64,000 bases of DNA, from NCBI RefSeq assembly GCF_000969985.1, contig NZ_CP009526.1, positions 1,674,001 to 1,738,000 on the forward strand, given 5' to 3'. Both the position numbers and the translations under genes were made by a program. A model generated the notes under the pieces. That model was not told the origin of the DNA. It saw only the letters and a program-made list of their open reading frames with translations, and made no database searches. Positions 8,405 to 55,850 of this stretch are shown here, one piece after another; within the stretch, counting starts at the first letter, position 1, and every line of letters begins with the position of its first letter. This stretch comes from Methanosarcina barkeri str. Wiesmoor (GTDB taxonomy: Archaea; Halobacteriota; Methanosarcinia; Methanosarcinales; Methanosarcinaceae).

Positions 8405-10180
8405 ATGGCCGACAAGAAAAATTTGAGGACTCCTATAGTCTGCGTGATGGGGCACGTCGACCACGGGAAAACGACTCTACTGGACAAGATCAGGGGTACT
8501 GCAATTGTCAGTGGAGAAGCCGGCGCTATCACCCAGCATATCGGGGCAACTGAAGTTCCAATAGATGTAATTATCAACAAGCTTGGAGACCCAAGGCTTC
8601 GGGATAGGTTCATAGTGCCAGGACTGCTCTTTATTGATACACCTGGACATCATGCCTTTACAACACTAAGAAGCAGGGGAGGCGCTCTTGCCGATCTTGC
8701 AATCGTTGTAGTGGATATAAACGAAGGTTTCAAACCTCAGACCTACGAAAGCCTGCAGATCTTAAAGCGGTTCAAAACTCCTTTTGTTGTTGTTGCGAAT
8801 AAGATTGACAGGATTGGCGGCTGGGTTTCACAAAAAGACCTGCCTTTTGCGGTCACTTTCAAAAAACAGTCTGAAGACGTCCAGGCCCGGCTTGAGACAA
8901 AGCTCTACGAGGTAATCGGAGAGTTATACAACCAGGGCTTTGCAGCAGAACGGTATGATAGGGTCACAAACTTCCAGAAAACCCTGGGTGTAGTGCCTGT
9001 AAGTGCCATGACAGGCGAAGGAATTCCTGATGTCCTGATGGTACTTCTAGGTCTGGCTCAGAAATTCCTTGAAGCAAACCTGCATTACAGTGCCAAAGGT
9101 CCCGGAGTCGGCACTGTGCTTGAGGTCAAGGAAGAAAAAGGGCTTGGTGCGACCCTGGATGTTATCCTTTATGACGGTACTCTGAAAAAGGGCGATACTG
9201 TTGTTATTGGAAGTCTGGGAAAACCAATCCAGACAAAGGTTCGTGCTCTCTTAAAGCCAAGGGAACTTTCTGAGATGCGTTATGAGAGCAAGTTCAAGCA
9301 GGTAAACAAGGTTACTGCTGCAGTTGGAGTAAAGATTTCAGCTCCAGGGCTCGAAGGTGCACTTGCAGGTTCTCCAATAAGGGTTGCTAACGAAGATACT
9401 CTTGACGAGATTGTAGACCAGATAAAATCCGAGATCGATGAAGTCAGGATTGATACTGGTGCGGTCGGAATTATGATCAAAGCGGATACGCTCGGCTCCC
9501 TTGAAGCTCTTGTCCATGAGTTCCAGAAAGATGAGGTCTCCATCAGGAAAGCCGAAGTAGGAGATATCTCACACCGGGACGCAATTGAGGCTTCGACAGT
9601 TGAAGACCCACTTTATTCGGTGATTATAGGTTTCAATGTCAAAGTTCACCCTGACGCCAGAGATTTCCTGCAGGAAAGCACTGTGAAGGTATTCACAAGT
9701 GACGTGATTTACCGCCTGGTTGAAGATTACCAGAAATATGTAAAAGAGCAGCAGGAGCAGGCTGAAAAGAGGATTTTCGAAACAATAATCCGTCCGGGAA
9801 AATTCAAAATCCTTCCTGGCTGCATATTCCGCCAGAGTAAACCCGCAGTTGTCGGCATAAGAGTGCTTGGCGGAGTCGTGCGGACAAATGCCGATGTGAT
9901 GCTTGAGAACGGAAACGTTGTAGGTAAGATCAAAGGCCTGCAGATCGAAGGAGAGAATATCCCGTCTGCAGGAGTAGGCAAAGAGGTTGCAATGGCAATT
10001 GAAGGTGCAACCGTAGGCAGGCAGATCAAAGAGGAGGACGTGCTCTACGTCAACGTGCCTGAGAGGCATGCCAAAGTTCTTGAGCACGAGATATACGATT
10101 CCCTTTCAACCGATGAAAAGGAAACTCTTGATATTTTTCTTTCCCTGAAAAGAAAAGATAATCCTTTCTGGGCAAAATAA
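8405..10180 (+). CDS. infB: Translation initiation factor aIF5B/IF-2
   Basis: The 591-residue GTPase promotes subunit joining and placement of initiator tRNA. G1 is GHVDHGKT near residues 16-23, G3 is DTPGHH, G4 is NKID and G5 is SAMTG. Domain II follows (GTVLEVKEEKGLGATLD), then the alpha/beta domain III and the C-terminal beta barrel ending RKDNPFWAK. There is no intein and the length is normal for archaeal aIF5B. The ATG at 8405 follows AGAGGT (8390-8395), and an ATG at 8387 would place that site inside the gene. The 154-bp gap after ndk has no other gene and may hold an internal promoter. Confidence 0.97.
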   Translation: MADKKNLRTPIVCVMGHVDHGKTTLLDKIRGTAIVSGEAGAITQHIGATEVPIDVIINKLGDPRLRDRFIVPGLLFIDTPGHHAFTTLRSRGGALADLAIVVVDINEGFKPQTYESLQILKRFKTPFVVVANKIDRIGGWVSQKDLPFAVTFKKQSEDVQARLETKLYEVIGELYNQGFAAERYDRVTNFQKTLGVVPVSAMTGEGIPDVLMVLLGLAQKFLEANLHYSAKGPGVGTVLEVKEEKGLGATLDVILYDGTLKKGDTVVIGSLGKPIQTKVRALLKPRELSEMRYESKFKQVNKVTAAVGVKISAPGLEGALAGSPIRVANEDTLDEIVDQIKSEIDEVRIDTGAVGIMIKADTLGSLEALVHEFQKDEVSIRKAEVGDISHRDAIEASTVEDPLYSVIIGFNVKVHPDARDFLQESTVKVFTSDVIYRLVEDYQKYVKEQQEQAEKRIFETIIRPGKFKILPGCIFRQSKPAVVGIRVLGGVVRTNADVMLENGNVVGKIKGLQIEGENIPSAGVGKEVAMAIEGATVGRQIKEEDVLYVNVPERHAKVLEHEIYDSLSTDEKETLDIFLSLKRKDNPFWAK

Positions 10181-11240: not shown

Positions 11241-12350
11241 TTATGCTTTTTCTGAAATTGATTCTGCGATTTTCATCATTTCGTCTTTTTCCAGGGAAGC
11301 ACAAAGACTTAGATTAACCTTTCCTAACTTCCACATCAAAAGTTTCGTTTTCCCCATCGAAAGATATTTTCCTTCTATCCCGTTAATCTGAATATCCTCA
11401 CCTCTATCCATAATTGTAGAATCGGATGACTGGTTCATAGAGACGGTTTCTGCAAGACTTATAAAGGCTTCGTCTTTTGTGTACGTAATTTCAACGGTTT
11501 CAAAACTCTGGTTTTCAGGAGAAAATTGGCTGTTGTTGTAGACCATTGAATTATTGAATTCATAGCCTTCAGGCAGATACTCCGGAGTAAGGATCTTAAA
11601 ACTGACTTCATTTCTGGCTTCTTCAAGGCTCAATTTTTCAGGAGGCTTAATTTCTCCTAAGTCTACTATTTTTGCGCCTTCTGGGACCTCAAATTTAAAT
11701 TCCGAATCTGGAAGCCCTGTGTTAACTTTAAGGTCTTGAATTTCCAATTTCATGGTTCGATTTCCATCGCCGTTATATGTCTCATACCTGAGAGGCATCC
11801 ATGTTTCCTGATCTACCCAAATTTTTGTTTTGTATATAAGCATGTACTCTCCATCGTTTTCTTTCGGAGTTGTTTCCAGCAGATAAGTTTTTCTTCCATC
11901 TACATTCTCAACTCTAAGTACTGTTACATTAGTATCGTTCAGGAAATCATCTATAATATTGGTATAATCATTTTTCGTAAGTTCAGAAGCTTTGGAAATT
12001 TTCATTTTTGTAACCGTATTTGTATCTGGGATGTAACTCCACACAGTTTTCCCATCTGAAACGATTATAGTTTGATTTTCTTTACCAGGTTCTGTTACAA
12101 TACTTTTAATCAGATTAGGCTTTTTGAACATAGTTTTGGATTCTGATTCTTTGGTTTCTCCTCCAAAGTAAGAGGTCACGTGCATTGTATATGAATAATC
12201 TCGAGTATTGTTCTCTTTATCCATCATCTGGGCTGCAATTTGTTCTGCACTCATGTTTTTTTCCGTGCAGCCTGAAGCAAAGAGGGCTACAACTATGAAA
12301 GTCAGAACAAATATTGAGCTAAATTTTTTCATTGTTGTCATATTACTCAT
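11241..12350 (-). CDS. LolA-like lipoprotein with C-terminal DUF4367-like domain
   Basis: The 369-residue product begins with a lipoprotein signal peptide ending in the lipobox FASGC near residue 28. Residues 35-230 match the outer-membrane lipoprotein sorting (LolA-like) fold of methanogens: IVSDGKTVWSYIPDTN, KIWVDQETWMPLRYE and SEFKFEVPEGAKIV. Residues 245-369 (FKILTPEYLPEGYE, INGIEGKYL) look like a DUF4367 domain. The halocin-like cluster also contains a shorter LolA-like paralogue at 14188. Both could bind hydrophobic ligands or act as immunity or chaperone proteins at the membrane, which is inference. The first of three close Met codons is used as start, and MKKFSS at 12332 is equally possible. 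Confidence 0.7.
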   Translation of the reverse strand: MSNMTTMKKFSSIFVLTFIVVALFASGCTEKNMSAEQIAAQMMDKENNTRDYSYTMHVTSYFGGETKESESKTMFKKPNLIKSIVTEPGKENQTIIVSDGKTVWSYIPDTNTVTKMKISKASELTKNDYTNIIDDFLNDTNVTVLRVENVDGRKTYLLETTPKENDGEYMLIYKTKIWVDQETWMPLRYETYNGDGNRTMKLEIQDLKVNTGLPDSEFKFEVPEGAKIVDLGEIKPPEKLSLEEARNEVSFKILTPEYLPEGYEFNNSMVYNNSQFSPENQSFETVEITYTKDEAFISLAETVSMNQSSDSTIMDRGEDIQINGIEGKYLSMGKTKLLMWKLGKVNLSLCASLEKDEMMKIAESISEKA

Positions 12351-12438
12351 CTTTCAACAGTTCATTCTTTTTTAAATATTGTAAAACTAATAATCTTGAA
12401 GACATTTGTAATTATTTATGAATTTTTCAAAATTAAGC

Positions 12439-13512
12439 TTAAAACATTATCCATAAACCAAGTAATATAAGCACAAATCCACTGATTTTTTTCAAGTATA
12501 TTTTATATGAACGAATTTGTTTAGATAGAGTATAACCTCCTATCAAGCCAATTCCGATAAAAGGTGTCAATACTCCAGCGCTAAAAGCAAGTAACAGGAT
12601 CAGATTATTTGCTGTTCCACTAGTGATGGTTTTATTGAGCAGAACAAGGAGCATTGGAGCAGTGCAAGGAACTTTTACAAAAGAAAATAATATCCCAAGG
12701 AAAAAAATTCCACCCAGAGTACCCGTATATCTCCGAGCAGAGTTCTGAAAATAGTTATCCAGAGCAACAGGTGATTTTAAAATTCCCATGAGGTTTAACC
12801 CAATAAGAATTATAATTATGCCTGTAATATAGGAAAAACTTTCCAAACTGGGAATTGATTTCTTAAAAGAGAGCAAACACAGACCTAAAACTATGTAGGA
12901 ACTCACCAGTCCCAATCCAAATATTACTGCACGTACCATACCGTTTTTTGTGCTACTGCATGTTCCTGCAGTAAAACTTAAAAGAAACCCTAGTATAGCC
13001 ATTAAACAAGGTGAAAAACCTGCAAAAAGGCCGAGTGAATAGGCAAATGGCAAATTCAGATTTGTATTAATATATCCATTATCCTGTTCTTTTTCCGGCA
13101 TCTTTTCTGTGGAATTTTCAGTATTCTTTCCCTCTTCCAAAAAGTATTTGTTGATTGATGTGTTTAGCTTCTCTTCAGTAATTTCTTCTTTAGGAATTTT
13201 TGTTTCATTGTTTATCACAATAGCCGGAACTTCAAGAAAACCATATTTGTTCCATTGATTGAAGCCATCAGCAGTGCTGGTATCAATTCGTGTTATCATG
13301 ATGCTATTGTTATATTGAACTTCTATTCGATCGACAATAGGATCGGCTATTTCACAATCATGACAACCTTTTTGATGAAAATACTGAATTGTGATTGGAT
13401 TTGCATACGCCGTCGGTATAAAAATAAGAGATAAATAAATTATAGTCAGGAGAGCTATTATATGAGAAATATTTTTCATGAGAATCCCTATAAGTACATC
13501 TTTTATTTTCAC
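12439..13512 (-). CDS. Thioredoxin-like domain fused to CcdA/DsbD-like transmembrane protein
   Basis: This 357-residue fusion has a signal/anchor segment (residues 15-36), then a thioredoxin-like domain with the redox motif GCHDC (Cys50, Cys53) and a cis-Pro region EVPAIVI (about 94-100). A charged linker (about 125-150) leads to six to seven transmembrane helices of the CcdA family. The two membrane cysteines of that family are visible in GFSPCLMA (Cys169) and VPCTAPM (Cys283). CcdA/DsbD proteins pass electrons across the membrane to extracytoplasmic thiols. Lying four genes from a ten-cysteine secreted precursor, it is the likely disulfide-handling component. The start could also be the Met at residue 12. 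Confidence 0.8.
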   Translation of the reverse strand: MKIKDVLIGILMKNISHIIALLTIIYLSLIFIPTAYANPITIQYFHQKGCHDCEIADPIVDRIEVQYNNSIMITRIDTSTADGFNQWNKYGFLEVPAIVINNETKIPKEEITEEKLNTSINKYFLEEGKNTENSTEKMPEKEQDNGYINTNLNLPFAYSLGLFAGFSPCLMAILGFLLSFTAGTCSSTKNGMVRAVIFGLGLVSSYIVLGLCLLSFKKSIPSLESFSYITGIIIILIGLNLMGILKSPVALDNYFQNSARRYTGTLGGIFFLGILFSFVKVPCTAPMLLVLLNKTITSGTANNLILLLAFSAGVLTPFIGIGLIGGYTLSKQIRSYKIYLKKISGFVLILLGLWIMF

Positions 13513-13540
13513 GAATCTGTGTATGTCGATAATAGGAAAC

Positions 13541-14191
13541 TCAATTATCTGAATTCTGTTTGCGCTGCAACCATTTTATTCCTAGAACCAAAAATATCAG
13601 TAATATTCCAAGAATTATACTTCCTTTCAAAATAGGAAGAATAGGATAATCAAGAACAAGGTAACGTACAAAAATGAAGGTACATGCGATTACGTAGAAA
13701 ACCAGCAATCTTATAGGATCTTTTTGATTTGCTTTCCTTTCACCATATATGATCTTTGAGAGTGAGACTCCGATAAATAATAAAAGCAAAATCCAGTATA
13801 TCTGATCCATATTATAAACTAAAGAAGCATAAAGATAGGCGACATACAAAAGTATTGTAACGAGTAGAAGACCCATATGTTCTCGAATTGATGACGAAAT
13901 TTTAGTTTCTTCATCTTTATAGACCTCTGTGATTTTTTCGTCATGAGACTTTGAACTCAAAATATGGTTAATTATAACGAAAAAATTATTGTTATCAATT
14001 TGTTCCTTTTTTCTATACCAGACCATAAAAGAGAAATGGATAGCTGTAATAAAGAGGGAAAGAATAAATACCCCTGACATCCCTAGCGGAATATATCCTT
14101 CCCTATTTAGTAGCCCAATTATTAAAAAACTAACAACTAATACTGGGAATGAACGTAATAATTCTTCTTTTACAATATAATCTATATTCAT
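13541..14191 (-). CDS. Six-helix integral membrane protein, unknown
   Basis: The 216-residue protein has about six hydrophobic segments: FPVLVVSFLIIGLL, MSGVFILSLFITAIH, two around residues 110-150, LLVFYVIACTFIFVRYLV, and a C-terminal one ending LGIKWLQRKQ. I recognise no family. Its ATG overlaps the stop of the LolA-like gene upstream (ATGA), and a GAGGTGG site lies just before it, so the two are probably translationally coupled. Within a bacteriocin-like cluster such a protein is a candidate for immunity, which is inference. Confidence 0.6.
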   Translation of the reverse strand: MNIDYIVKEELLRSFPVLVVSFLIIGLLNREGYIPLGMSGVFILSLFITAIHFSFMVWYRKKEQIDNNNFFVIINHILSSKSHDEKITEVYKDEETKISSSIREHMGLLLVTILLYVAYLYASLVYNMDQIYWILLLLFIGVSLSKIIYGERKANQKDPIRLLVFYVIACTFIFVRYLVLDYPILPILKGSIILGILLIFLVLGIKWLQRKQNSDN

Positions 14192-14856
14192 ATATTGACC
14201 ACCTCAGTACCTTCTAGAGGTTTAAATTTAAATTCAGTATCTTTTATGCCTGAATTTATAGAATAATTCTCATATTCTAGTGTCATCAGAAGTTTGTCAC
14301 CGTTATAACTTTGGATCTTTAGCGGCATCCAGATTTTGGGATCAATCCATAAAAAACGATGCCAGCCTTTGGATTCGCTTAGTTTACTTGAAATTACTTC
14401 GAGTTTATAAGTTTTGACTTTTCCTAAATATTCACTACCTTTGTAATTGATAGTACAATTATCTGATATAGGGTCAATAAATTCACTATAGGTTGGAATG
14501 AACTGTAAAGGATTCTGTGAGGTGTTATTCATTAACCATGTTTTGTTTTTAATTGGATCATATTCCCATGTCAGTGTTCCATCTGAACCAATTGTTAAAC
14601 ATGTAGAAGAATTTACCCGATCGACTCTTTTATACATATTGGGCTTTTTGATTAAAAAACTAGATTCAGTGGTTATAGATTCATTTCCTATAAACATAGT
14701 TAATTTTTCATCATAAGATATATCAGATATCTCTTGTTGTTTATTGATCAAGTTTTTAGAGACCGATTCTGAGTTCACTCTTTCTTCAAAACCATAATAA
14801 AAAATTGCAAAAACAATTATTGCAAAAACAAGGAATAAACTCTTTTTTGGTACCAT
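14188..14856 (-). CDS. Membrane-anchored LolA-like protein
   Basis: The 222-residue product has an N-terminal anchor (SLFLVFAIIVFAIFYY) and a LolA-like domain: SFLIKKPNMYKRV, TIGSDGTLTWEYDP, LWIDPKIWMPLKIQSYNG and TEFKFKPLEGTEVV. It is clearly paralogous to the first 230 residues of the lipoprotein at 11241. The stop overlaps the start of the next membrane protein by four bases. It is the first gene after the halocin-like precursor, separated by 87 bp. Confidence 0.65.
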   Translation of the reverse strand: MVPKKSLFLVFAIIVFAIFYYGFEERVNSESVSKNLINKQQEISDISYDEKLTMFIGNESITTESSFLIKKPNMYKRVDRVNSSTCLTIGSDGTLTWEYDPIKNKTWLMNNTSQNPLQFIPTYSEFIDPISDNCTINYKGSEYLGKVKTYKLEVISSKLSESKGWHRFLWIDPKIWMPLKIQSYNGDKLLMTLEYENYSINSGIKDTEFKFKPLEGTEVVNI

Positions 14857-14943
14857 TTTCTCTCCTCATAAAAAATAAGAGGTGAAAACCTCTAATAAAC
14901 ATTAAGTATTTTTCAGTTCAGACTGAACTTTGTATATGCCACA

Positions 14944-15720
14944 TCAATAACACTTTGCCAGTACAACTGCTATTTCAAGACCCATGCAAAGTGCAGCTGG
15001 TGAACAAGTTGGAATCGAAGGCATATAGTAACAAGGCGCAAGCACTGTTAAACAAACGTCACATATTGAGGGCGTTCCAGGAGGGCAAACAATACCTAAA
15101 ACTGAGCAAAGACAGTCATCGATAATCGCCTGCGCAACACAGCTCCAGTAACCATCTTTTGTACTAGTGGTGAAGAAGTCTGCATTGACATCTCCAATTA
15201 TAGCCCCTTTGCTCACAATTTGTGTATTGAGAATTTCCCCATCGTCACCTACTCTACTTAAAGTTAATTCGTTCAATGTTTTATCTTCAAAAATTTGTGT
15301 AGCACTCATTACTTGTGCAGGTTTTTCATCACTCCATATTACAAAAACATTGGATATTTGAACAGAGACATTATCCTTAGCAATAACTTCCACTGGCAAT
15401 ATAACTCCTGTCACATTATCTACAGACCCATCTTCCAGTGTTTTTTCTAGGGAATAAACTTTAGCACCATCTTCAATTTGTTTCAAGTCTGTGGCAGAAG
15501 GACTTCCTGAAAGTTTTTGAACATCTTTAAGATTTAGAGCAAAAGCAATTTTTTCGTACTTTTCCATTCCTGTTATTTCTTTCTTTTCAATTCCACTTGC
15601 AGTAAAATTGCAAGATGTCCCCGCAGGACACGCCATTGCAGGCGTAACCAGCATCATACTTACAACGAGCATCATCATGAAAAGCCCGCTGATTCGTCTA
15701 ATTTTGCTGTTTAATTTCAA
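14944..15720 (-). CDS. Secreted halocin C8-like precursor with ten-cysteine C-terminal domain
   Basis: The 258-residue precursor has a twin-arginine-like signal peptide (KIRRISGLF, then a hydrophobic run ending TPAMA). After it comes CPAGTSC, a hydrophilic domain of about 150 residues, and a C-terminal domain with exactly ten cysteines (194, 203, 205, 212, 220, 223, 230, 239, 245, 257) ending in AKCY. A signal peptide, an intervening domain and a terminal ten-cysteine peptide form the architecture of the halocin C8 precursor, whose middle domain gives immunity. Similarity is by layout and cysteine content and needs a profile search. TTG at 15718-15720 is preferred because AGGTGG lies 6 nt upstream. 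GTG at 15738 would place that site inside the gene. It heads the cluster running to 11241. Confidence 0.65.
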   Translation of the reverse strand: MKLNSKIRRISGLFMMMLVVSMMLVTPAMACPAGTSCNFTASGIEKKEITGMEKYEKIAFALNLKDVQKLSGSPSATDLKQIEDGAKVYSLEKTLEDGSVDNVTGVILPVEVIAKDNVSVQISNVFVIWSDEKPAQVMSATQIFEDKTLNELTLSRVGDDGEILNTQIVSKGAIIGDVNADFFTTSTKDGYWSCVAQAIIDDCLCSVLGIVCPPGTPSICDVCLTVLAPCYYMPSIPTCSPAALCMGLEIAVVLAKCY

Positions 15721-15879
15721 TCTATTCCACCTCTTCACTTTTATTCAAGAGGCACGAAGCAAACTTTAAAATAGTTAAAAAGTAATATACTCCATGCCTT
15801 CGGGTATGCAGGGTTCAGGATCGTTCTCAAACTTCACTGAACTCTGCAAACATTCCCACTTATTCAGTTTTAGAGAATC

Positions 15880-15992
15880 CTTTATAAGTTTTCCGGCCAA
15901 TTTCTCTAACTATCAGAGATCAGGGAATCTTTACAGATCTAAAATGAGCTACAAAAAACAGTTAGAGAAATTGGTCGAAAGTTATATATAGA
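15880..15992. repeat. 113-bp palindromic element with 15-bp perfect arms
   Basis: CCAATTTCTCTAACT (15897-15911) is exactly complementary to AGTTAGAGAAATTGG (15960-15974). Weaker complementarity extends outward to about 27 bp per arm. The loop is 48 nt. A similar palindrome with TCTCTAAC in its arms lies at 28675-28790. It may be a MITE or a structured transcript end. Confidence 0.6.
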
Positions 15993-16270: not shown

Positions 16271-17050
16271 TTATCCATATTTTTCAATCAAATTTTCATA
16301 AGAAGGGTTTATTCTATAAATGATGTTTTTTCCTTTTCTTTCTTCATTTATGAGTTCTACTTCTTTAAGAGTTCTCATATACCAGCTAATTGTAGCTCTG
16401 GAAACTCCGATTTCATGTGCAAGAGCTGAGTTTGTATTACATTTTCCATTTTGTATTTCTGAAACTATTCTTTGATTTGTTATGTTTTGAAGAGCAGAAA
16501 TAATTTTTATTTCTTCTTCATCATAAGTGGAATTATTTTCGAAATACCTAATCTTTCCGCCATCTTTATGGACTTCAATTTTGTTCTGAACTGCCAGAAT
16601 AGTTATATGATGCCTTACTTTTCCTCTGCCTAAGCCTGTTTTTTCTACAATTTCACTAATGCATGCTCCCGGTTTAGTCTTGATATACGTATAAATACTG
16701 GACCGATTAAGATTATCTAGTACATTTTCTGTATCTACAATTTTGAATCCTAGTACCACGAAAATGAGTTTTGTAAAGTACAGCAATACGTCTATTATTG
16801 ATAAGATTTGCATCGCAGCCAGCCAGAGCAAGAACTGCCAGTAGACTGTAAAGTCCTTAAGTTGTACTACCTCTTCTCCGTCAATCGAAACTCCGACCTG
16901 GTCACCTGGAGCTGGGCTTACTATATATTCCGTAGCTCCAGCTGTTGCTGTTAACAGAAAAAATAATAAGAAAATGGTAAGCTTTTTTTGAAGCTTAACG
17001 CTGGTAGATATTAAGCGTGTAACTTTGGCTTCCACTAACCGATTCTCCAT
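16271..17050 (-). CDS. Membrane-tethered double winged-helix regulator, copy 1
   Basis: The product has a signal/anchor segment (about 25-42), a short outer stretch beginning TEYIVSPAPGDQVG, and a long hydrophobic hairpin (YWQFLLWLAAMQILSIIDVLL..IFVVLGFKI, about 70-100). Two cytoplasmic winged-helix domains follow: about 112-165 (ACISEIVEKTGLGRGKVRHH) and 178-255 (NSALAHEIGVSRATISWYM). It is probably a one-component sensor that binds DNA from the membrane. The start is uncertain because the first 56 bp overlap the upstream PPC-like gene and a start nearer LQKKLTIF would avoid this. Close paralogues lie at 23934 and 38536. The signal sensed is unknown. Confidence 0.7.
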   Translation of the reverse strand: MENRLVEAKVTRLISTSVKLQKKLTIFLLFFLLTATAGATEYIVSPAPGDQVGVSIDGEEVVQLKDFTVYWQFLLWLAAMQILSIIDVLLYFTKLIFVVLGFKIVDTENVLDNLNRSSIYTYIKTKPGACISEIVEKTGLGRGKVRHHITILAVQNKIEVHKDGGKIRYFENNSTYDEEEIKIISALQNITNQRIVSEIQNGKCNTNSALAHEIGVSRATISWYMRTLKEVELINEERKGKNIIYRINPSYENLIEKYG

Positions 17051-17877: not shown

Positions 17878-18180
17878 TCATTGAGTTTGAGGCATAGATC
17901 CGTAATAAGTTTCCAGAAATGTTGATACAAAAATCAGAATAATAAGCCCAATTTTGATCCATTTTTTTATCTCTGGACTGATTGTGGGGGGAAGTGAAAT
18001 ATATCTCATAATTATGAAGGGGATTGAAAAACCTGTGCCTATAGAAATCAAAAACGTAGACAGTACATGTGCAAAATAAGTGTACTGTGGGTAATAAGTC
18101 ATTATTATGATACGAGTAACTGATGAAGCTACTAAGAAAACTAAGAAAATAGAACTAAAAATAAAGATGGGGTTTAACAT
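17878..18180 (-). CDS. Small three-helix membrane protein, candidate immunity protein
   Basis: The 100-residue protein has three hydrophobic segments: IFIFSSIFLVFLVASSV, VLSTFLISIGTGFSIPFIIM, and IKIGLIILIFVSTFL. I recognise no family. Its ATG lies inside the end of the cysteine-rich precursor gene (7-bp overlap with the TAA), so it is translationally coupled to it. Small membrane proteins in this position often protect the producer of an antimicrobial peptide. That role is inferred from position only. Confidence 0.6.
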   Translation of the reverse strand: MLNPIFIFSSIFLVFLVASSVTRIIIMTYYPQYTYFAHVLSTFLISIGTGFSIPFIIMRYISLPPTISPEIKKWIKIGLIILIFVSTFLETYYGSMPQTQ

Positions 18181-18728
18181 ACCTTCGCCTCTTGACAGAT
18201 TTCACTTGAGCTCCAATTACATATACTTTGAGCAGCCCACATGCAGAATTCACAAGCTGCTCCTCTTATTTGCACTTGATCTGTAACAGAATCGTACTGC
18301 AACATTGTAATTTCACCACCACTTCGAACACCTGCCACAACAGCACTTCCAAGTTCATTGGAAGCAAATACAATTATAGCAGATTCATTTTCATCTGTGC
18401 CATTAAATGGTATCCCTACAAGTGTAGTTGTTACTGTTTCATTTTCTGTTGTTGTAGTCGTCCTTGATACGTTAATTTCTTCAATAGAGAAGATATAGCC
18501 TGATTTTGTCAATTCGTCTTTCAGCTTAAAGACACTTTTATCTGATAATGCCTGTGCTATAGCTTTTTTCTGTTCTTTTTCTGACAGTTCTATAGTTTCC
18601 ACTTTCGCGTCTGAATATTTATCGTACTCGGAACTTAGCGAACAGGCTGGGCAATCTGCTGATGTGTTAGAGCTATCTGGTTCATTTTGTGCCTTATTCG
18701 ATATATTATATCTCCTATTTTTTTTCAT
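18174..18728 (-). CDS. Second halocin C8-like cysteine-rich precursor, shortened core
   Basis: The 184-residue product has DCPACS at residues 25-30, a middle domain of about 120 residues resembling the other precursor in layout, and a cysteine-rich C-terminus with Cys159, 162, 170, 178 and 184. The segment CEFCMWAAQSIC has the same C-x2-C-x2-AA-x3-C spacing as the start of mature halocin C8 as I remember it. The core is much shorter, with five cysteines instead of ten. There is no signal peptide. An AGGAGA site lies just inside the frame with no start codon after it, so the natural start may have changed. The ATG overlaps the end of the M28 peptidase gene by 14 bp. Confidence 0.55.
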   Translation of the reverse strand: MKKNRRYNISNKAQNEPDSSNTSADCPACSLSSEYDKYSDAKVETIELSEKEQKKAIAQALSDKSVFKLKDELTKSGYIFSIEEINVSRTTTTTENETVTTTLVGIPFNGTDENESAIIVFASNELGSAVVAGVRSGGEITMLQYDSVTDQVQIRGAACEFCMWAAQSICNWSSSEICQEAKVC

Positions 18729-28674: not shown

Positions 28675-28790
28675 TATATTTTATGTCCAAAGTCTCTAAC
28701 AATTCATACGTTGATTAAAATTATAAGAAAATTTATCATAATCCGAGTTTTTTCCAGGATTGTTAGAGACTTTGGACACAAAATTAATAT
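28675..28790. repeat. Palindromic element with 19-bp perfect arms
   Basis: GTCCAAAGTCTCTAACAAT (28685-28703) is exactly complementary to ATTGTTAGAGACTTTGGAC (28759-28777), and imperfect pairing extends about 10 bp outward. The loop is 55 nt. It resembles the palindrome at 15880-15992 in size and in the shared TCTCTAAC. It may be a MITE or a bidirectional terminator between the divergent NEW3 and PPC-like genes. Confidence 0.65.
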
Positions 28791-28813
28791 TGATGTAAAA
28801 AAGTAGCAATTTA

Positions 28814-28852
28814 TGGAGTTCAACCGGACGCGAAAAGAGAGATCGAACTCCA
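28814..28852. promoter_or_regulatory. Inverted GGAGTTC/GAACTCC operator-like motif
   Basis: TGGAGTTCAA (28814-28823) and TCGAACTCCA (28843-28852) are inverted halves 19 bp apart, about 95 bp before the PPC-like gene start. The same arrangement with 17-20 bp spacing occurs at 23615-23649 and 40447-40486, with degenerate left halves at 25510-25545 and 45270-45308. This recurrence suggests a regulator-binding site. Confidence 0.45.
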
Positions 28853-28909
28853 ACCCATAAAAGAGATAAATCTGCATAGTTTTAAAATTACTTAATACTT
28901 GCGGATTTT

Positions 28910-55739: not shown

Positions 55740-55850
55740 ATTTACTATGCATCTTAGATAAAATGTCAAATAAGAAAGAGCGATTACTCGCTCTTCCTCT
55801 TCTAAGAACCGGATGTGCACTTTTCAATGAATCCGGCTCAAGCGTTAGAT
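55740..55850 (-). other. Possible group II intron remnant
   Basis: On the minus strand GAGCCGGATTCATTGAAAAG is followed by TGCACATCCGGTTCTTAG, a hairpin resembling the conserved stretch flanking reverse-transcriptase ORFs of group II introns (55806-55839). A GAGCGAGTAATCGCTC palindrome adjoins it (about 55777-55793). No reverse transcriptase sequence is left, so the call rests on one hairpin. Confidence 0.3.

Follow-up and report, generated by a model that had tools for sequence, protein, structure and literature searches.

A likely polymorphic archaeocin locus with cognate immunity genes and antisense sRNA162 in Methanosarcina barkeri

Does a methanogen carry an archaeocin locus of its own, and to which peptide family would it belong? 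The question is raised by a stretch of 64,000 nucleotides from the genome of Methanosarcina barkeri str. Wiesmoor (contig NZ_CP009526.1, positions 1,674,001 to 1,738,000; hereafter the window), in which an initial annotation had seen a halocin C8-like precursor accompanied by a thioredoxin-CcdA fusion (Trx-CcdA). To our knowledge, no archaeocin has been characterised from methanogens. We consider it likely that the precursor and its neighbours form a polymorphic archaeocin locus with cognate immunity, controlled by the small RNA sRNA162. G and L numbers below denote the genomes and loci compared.

A shared leader joined to different cysteine-rich domains

14944..15720, minus strand: secreted precursor of 258 residues
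15720-15628, minus strand: leader, residues 1-31
15627-15166, minus strand: middle domain, residues 32-185
15165-14944, minus strand: ten-cysteine domain of type A, residues 186-258
15727..15734, minus strand: ribosome-binding site AGAGGTGG of the TTG start
15881..15887, minus strand: TATA box of the precursor (TTATAAA), assigned by sequence

The precursor starts at TTG 15720, 3' of AGAGGTGG at 15734-15727, and the arrangement of AGAGGTG, a spacer of 8-9 nt and TTG or GTG was found in 15/15 Methanosarcina precursors compared. Translation from this codon gives the 258-residue secreted protein originally described, and exactly ten cysteines, as had been noted, lie within its final 73 residues; all ten are invariant in the two closest orthologues, whose domains are 78-88% identical. 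At the end of the leader stands TPAMA-C, a plausible site for signal peptidase. The twin-arginine-like signal that had also been described did not hold up, as IRRIS of the window precursor reads IRKIS or VRKIS in orthologues of 85-90% identity. Two genes for TatC of the twin-arginine translocation (Tat) pathway are present in the same genome; ordinary Sec export nevertheless appears more likely, since the arginine pair is confined to the window precursor.

We sorted the sibling proteins of this precursor into types A to G by their cysteine-rich C-terminal domains. Their N-terminal profiles are homologous among all types (hhalign 98.3-100%; type A against the others 98.9-99.7%), and the C-terminal profiles are largely unrelated, that of type A resembling the others only in a weak match to type F (55%). 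Such a conserved N-terminal part with a swapped effector domain is characteristic of polymorphic toxins and bacteriocins. The precursor family occurs in 39 of the 186 genomes and 12 of the 27 genera of the order (E up to 0.001). Type A itself was found in three Methanosarcina genomes and in G455 (L192), a member of another family (E 8.8e-24); further matches to its domain in the order are weak and probably due to chance. The PDB sequence search gave no match, PADLOC matched no defence family, and the viral contigs and plasmids searched held no relatives. One contig filed under a Bacteroidaceae metagenome-assembled genome (L030) carries a Methanosarcina locus, most likely through misbinning.

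The layout of the halocin C8 precursor, with its ten-cysteine end, is indeed that of the window protein, but the proposed identity of the peptide could not be upheld. The precursor gave no match to the halocin C8 model TIGR04449 at E up to 1 (cut-off 24 bits), and the type A C-terminal domain reached 0.5% against halocin C8 sets in hhalign; the positive control in the same library, a G094 protein (L136) that we take to carry the halocin C8 sequence, scored 56.9 bits. When middle domains were compared with the HalI immunity domain, type A reached 0.1% against the haloarchaeal set, and sibling type E 90%. Halocin C8 membership of the type A peptide was rejected by Pfam, NCBIfam and hhalign. Three siblings with the same leader do match TIGR04449 (42.7, 48.2 and 24.0 bits), and types B and C reach 55-99% against the halocin C8 sets. 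As judged from these profiles, the tie of the type A peptide to halocin C8 runs through the leader shared with its siblings, not through its own domain. Halocin C8-like proteins beyond haloarchaea are already recognised by TIGR04449; a 2019 study by Makarova et al. in mBio reportedly extended the family to diverse archaea and probably covers part of the Methanosarcina proteins.

Type-specific membrane proteins, toxin loss and exchange

13541..14191, minus strand: TM216, a protein with six transmembrane segments, found paired with type A alone and predicted to confer immunity to its peptide
14188..14856, minus strand: LolA222, a LolA-like protein of 222 residues confined to type A loci (E 4.7e-6 to Pfam LolA_like, short of the curated cut-off); adjoins type A toxins in L032, L033 and L192
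18174..18728, minus strand: dead precursor of type B (halocin C8-like), recognised by alignment to the intact L035:6374-7126 and by its pairing with TM100
17878..18180, minus strand: TM100, an intact membrane protein paired with type B toxins and predicted orphan immunity gene

Each of six toxin types is accompanied by a membrane protein of its own, in the pairs A-TM216, B-TM100, C-TM72, D-TM129, E-TM116 and G-TM95. Type and membrane protein agree in 23 of 24 pairs (permutation p 5e-5), some of which are orthologous loci, so that their independence is overstated. In L192, from another taxonomic family, type A is again followed by LolA222 and a TM216-like fragment. A type-specific gene of predicted immunity function thus stands beside the effector, a feature absent from the initial annotation, as were the second, dead toxin cassette at 17878-18728 and the antisense sRNA162 discussed below.

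The fate of these membrane proteins after toxin loss is informative. The sister species G029, with a dS (synonymous divergence) of 0.10 from the window at infB, is without the window segment 14189-15688, which holds the precursor and LolA222, and its Trx-CcdA is cut to 68 codons; TM216 is intact there, with 98% identity. At the same site in G029, a type D toxin is deleted between its leader and last residues, and TM129 is intact. Likewise, the type B toxin of the window has lost its leader and toxic core beside an intact TM100. Orphan copies of TM216 in G009, G015, G021 and G022 show ratios of nonsynonymous to synonymous divergence (dN/dS) of 0.16-0.35. Broken copies of TM216 exist too, and its retention after toxin loss is therefore common, not universal. 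Intact membrane proteins that stay under selection once the toxin has gone are as expected of immunity genes, and such orphans are a further hallmark of polymorphic toxin systems.

Between the window and G008, dS is 0.94 at infB and 0.97 at the regulator gene, against 0.12 at the precursor, 0.21 at LolA222, 0.39 at TM216 and 0.73 at Trx-CcdA. Being lowest at the precursor and rising through its companions, these values indicate a recent transfer, between species, of the cassette's toxin end. The toxin domain has a dN/dS of about 1-1.5, with all ten cysteines kept, compared with 0.2-0.4 for the companions (Fisher p 0.014-0.018 per pair, on few sites and with non-independent pairs).

sRNA162 and the proposed identity of MM2442

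15796..15984, plus strand: sRNA162 gene, antisense to the 5' leader of the precursor (Rfam RF02792; 182.2 bits against a gathering score of 78)
16271..17050, minus strand: ArsR-type regulator with N-terminal transmembrane segments, counterpart by gene order of M. mazei MM2441, a trans target of sRNA162 (PMC3510493)
16995..17495, minus strand: PPC-like secreted protein overlapping the regulator, counterpart of MM2440

sRNA162 is among the best-studied archaeal regulatory RNAs and is credited with the methanol/methylamine switch. In the window, transcription of the precursor probably starts near 15862, a position obtained by carrying over the spacing at the orthologous L033 and the start mapped in PMC3510493, and sRNA162 would then overlap the precursor messenger RNA by about 67 nt. 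The region upstream of the precursor is conserved at every toxin type; an operator or riboswitch, considered for it, was dropped once Rfam identified sRNA162. Among the precursors, types A, B, C, D, F and G have the RNA in this antisense position, and so does the type E relative of G007. No copy above threshold lies at the G003 precursor of type E, and G001 is truncated at a contig end. Among 36 above-threshold copies in the genus, assigned by reading the sequence, 13 lie at intact precursors, 11 at precursor remnants or toxin-free cassettes, and four have no evident partner.

In M. mazei, sRNA162 sits between MM2442 and MM2441, the ArsR regulator that is the second gene after MM2440 (PMC3510493). 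MM2442 is a protein of unknown function for which Jaeger et al. (2012) saw no ribosome-binding site and whose role they called elusive; its transcript begins 184 nt before the annotated start and overlaps sRNA162 by 65 nt, and sRNA162 binds both the MM2442 leader in vitro and the MM2440-2441 mRNA (PMC3510493). The highest-scoring sRNA162 copy (214.8 bits) lies at L033 in G008, which we take to be M. mazei. The order there is PPC protein, ArsR regulator, sRNA162, type A precursor, LolA222, TM216, Trx-CcdA and a second ArsR regulator, and the gene count agrees with MM2440 to MM2446. Position 10017 there precedes the ATG of codon 15 by exactly 184 nt, and a TATA box stands at 10042, a further 25 bp upstream. 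From gene order and count, transcription start and overlap geometry we infer that MM2442 encodes the type A precursor and that its annotation is 14 codons too short. Its true start would be the TTG 42 nt upstream of the annotated ATG, behind a strong ribosome-binding site (AGAGGTGG in the window), which would explain why none was seen. The literature search found no paper linking sRNA162 or MM2442 to a peptide precursor.

We tentatively suggest, at somewhat less than even confidence, that the primary role of sRNA162 in Methanosarcina is antisense regulation of secreted peptide toxins that form a mobile, polymorphic family. In this view the RNA accompanies each cassette and, via the ArsR-type regulator, couples production of the weapon to carbon source and growth phase.

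Several related elements were seen in passing. Upstream of L032:12441 and L034:13289, the first leader hairpin retains its stem, but its loop is inverted compared with that of other copies. At window positions 28677-28863 on the minus strand, a diverged sRNA162-like sequence that does not reach the gathering score (51.9 bits) is found upstream of, and antisense to, a secreted protein of 139 residues. The second copy in G008 (L033 4585-4774), which is probably sRNA171, stands before the gene of a different kind of secreted protein, 148 residues long. Two membrane proteins, an ATP-binding cassette (ABC) ATPase and a LolA-like lipoprotein follow, and together (L033 1042-4509) these may be another peptide system with ABC-type immunity. 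Elsewhere in the window, positions 55765-55841 match an Rfam group II intron barely above threshold (42.3 bits, cut-off 40).

Companion genes, alternative readings and known systems

12439..13512, minus strand: fusion of an extracytoplasmic thioredoxin (CHDC) with CcdA, matching DsbD, thioredoxin and glutaredoxin profiles; ATG start at 13476 likely
11241..12350, minus strand: LolA-like lipoprotein of 369 residues (lipobox LFASGC; Pfam LolA_like 58.3 bits, cut-off 30), conserved at L036, L039, L040 and L156

All four neighbours named in the initial annotation (LolA-like protein, membrane protein, CXXC-CcdA fusion and lipoprotein) are present on the minus strand, and the proposed association of an archaeocin-like precursor with its own Trx-CcdA and LolA-like companions proved to be conserved across Methanosarcinales. 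Trx-CcdA consists of a signal sequence, an outside thioredoxin-like domain with the CHDC motif and a CcdA-like domain in the membrane, where the SPC and VPC cysteines are conserved. C38, C41, C157 and C271 are invariant over nine sequences, and the DsbD profile is matched with E 2.8e-14, below its cut-off. Among the 186 genomes, the fusion or a large piece of it occurs in 26 and a precursor in 32; in the 22 that have both, the two always lie within 6.3 kb (Fisher p 4e-17, ignoring phylogeny). In G256, of another genus (L147), the fusion and a halocin C8-like precursor share 7 bp, and the genes after them encode a LolA-like lipoprotein and a membrane protein of 74 residues. This co-occurrence and the recurrence of the domain at family-level distance place the original observation well beyond chance. 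A 70%-identical copy of Trx-CcdA lies away from any precursor at G016:C1:813449-814498 and G022:C1:3194004-3195053 (L153 and L154), adjoining a secreted protein that by eye resembles a chagasin-type protease inhibitor.

If the locus is an archaeocin system, the precursor would be exported, most likely by Sec, and its five-disulfide type A domain would be oxidised or isomerised outside the membrane with the aid of Trx-CcdA, which, judging from DsbD, may supply reducing power for disulfide isomerisation. An unlinked protease would cut between the middle and cysteine domains, releasing a five-disulfide peptide that would inhibit related archaea. TM216 would protect the producer, probably with the LolA-like proteins as membrane-side binders. 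At least six alternative cysteine-rich toxin domains, most of them paired with a membrane protein of their own, would share this leader, promoter and antisense sRNA162; exchange moves cassettes between species, and predicted immunity genes outlast toxins that have died. sRNA162 would act in cis as antisense RNA on the precursor 5' leader and in trans on the mRNA of the upstream ArsR regulator. Secreted subtilases (Peptidase_S8), candidate maturation proteases, lie directly beside precursors in another family of the order, at L183 (4014-5126) and L187 (5971-7086) only. Halocin H4 is activated by a serine protease (PMC12893001).

Several points weigh against this proposal. Antimicrobial activity, mature peptide and disulfides are inferred, and the locus in the window encodes no maturation protease. 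AlphaFold models of the full precursor and of the 73-residue domain (predicted local distance difference test 41 and 46) were too poor for use. The dN/dS excess of the toxin domain depends on pairs that are not independent, with 12-24 substitutions each. Several precursor loci (G044, G052 and the f5 genomes) lack Trx-CcdA, and G016 and G488 have it but no precursor; it is therefore neither strictly required nor exclusive. Since reducing power is what CcdA/DsbD proteins normally supply, Trx-CcdA could as well isomerise or inactivate the toxin as oxidise it. Finally, eight of the 36 sRNA162 copies stand at other secreted proteins.

The layout of the precursor and the TIGR04449 matches of its siblings would also suit a true halocin C8 member in a methanogen, with the ten-cysteine halocin fold and immunity conferred by the precursor's middle domain. 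We regard this as highly improbable, as the type A domain fails both profile comparisons, its cysteine spacing differs, the immunity candidates are separate membrane proteins and close orthologues lack the twin arginine. A self-directed module, regulatory or for addiction, in which the producing cell is itself the target of the peptide and sRNA162 serves as antisense antitoxin, as in type I toxin-antitoxin systems, could explain why the RNA lies in cis across the leader at nearly every cassette and why leaders and RNAs are common to different types. It is unlikely given a secreted, disulfide-rich precursor and type-specific membrane proteins kept after toxin loss, which fit defence against an incoming toxin; moreover, an M. 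mazei sRNA162 deletion mutant is viable (PMC3510493).

Much the same locus might be seen if the precursor were a secreted cysteine-rich signal or surface protein with the membrane protein as its receptor, since a polymorphic ligand with a matching membrane protein, used for private signalling or kin recognition, would look alike, and sRNA162 provides a link to growth phase (PMC3510493). Yet a receptor would not be expected to stay under selection where its ligand has repeatedly been deleted, and the halocin C8 domains of siblings belong to a known antibiotic family; we give this explanation little credence. What seems new is the type A peptide class, the pairing of toxin types with immunity genes that also occur as orphans, the tie to Trx-CcdA and the connection to sRNA162 and MM2442. 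The locus offers a set of predicted toxin, immunity and thiol-enzyme genes in a genetically tractable genus, and a candidate answer to a question open since 2012, namely the nature of the sRNA162 cis target MM2442 and its apparent lack of a ribosome-binding site.

Compared with known systems, the locus resembles halocin C8 (ProC8/HalI) in its secreted precursor of leader, middle domain and C-terminal ten-cysteine domain, and siblings sharing the leader carry that very domain. It differs in a type A domain that does not match it, in a leader that is not clearly Tat, and in having ArsR/sRNA162 control, Trx-CcdA, LolA-like proteins and separate membrane proteins; no Trx-CcdA was found beside haloarchaeal halocin C8 genes among the loci examined. 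With DsbD/CcdA thiol carriers the fusion shares the CcdA-type membrane domain and the outside CxxC thioredoxin domain, but it is shorter, consists of those two domains alone and is genetically tied to peptide precursors. Gene order, small RNA family and antisense overlap are those of the M. mazei sRNA162-MM2440-2441-MM2442 locus, where MM2442 is of unknown function, whereas the corresponding gene here, which starts at a TTG further upstream, encodes an archaeocin-like precursor belonging to one of many toxin types. Although its effector is a small disulfide-rich secreted peptide rather than a large surface protein with an enzyme domain, and it has no delivery machine, the locus shares with polymorphic toxin systems a conserved N-terminus, a swapped C-terminal effector, adjacent and putatively cognate immunity genes, orphan immunity genes and dead toxins.

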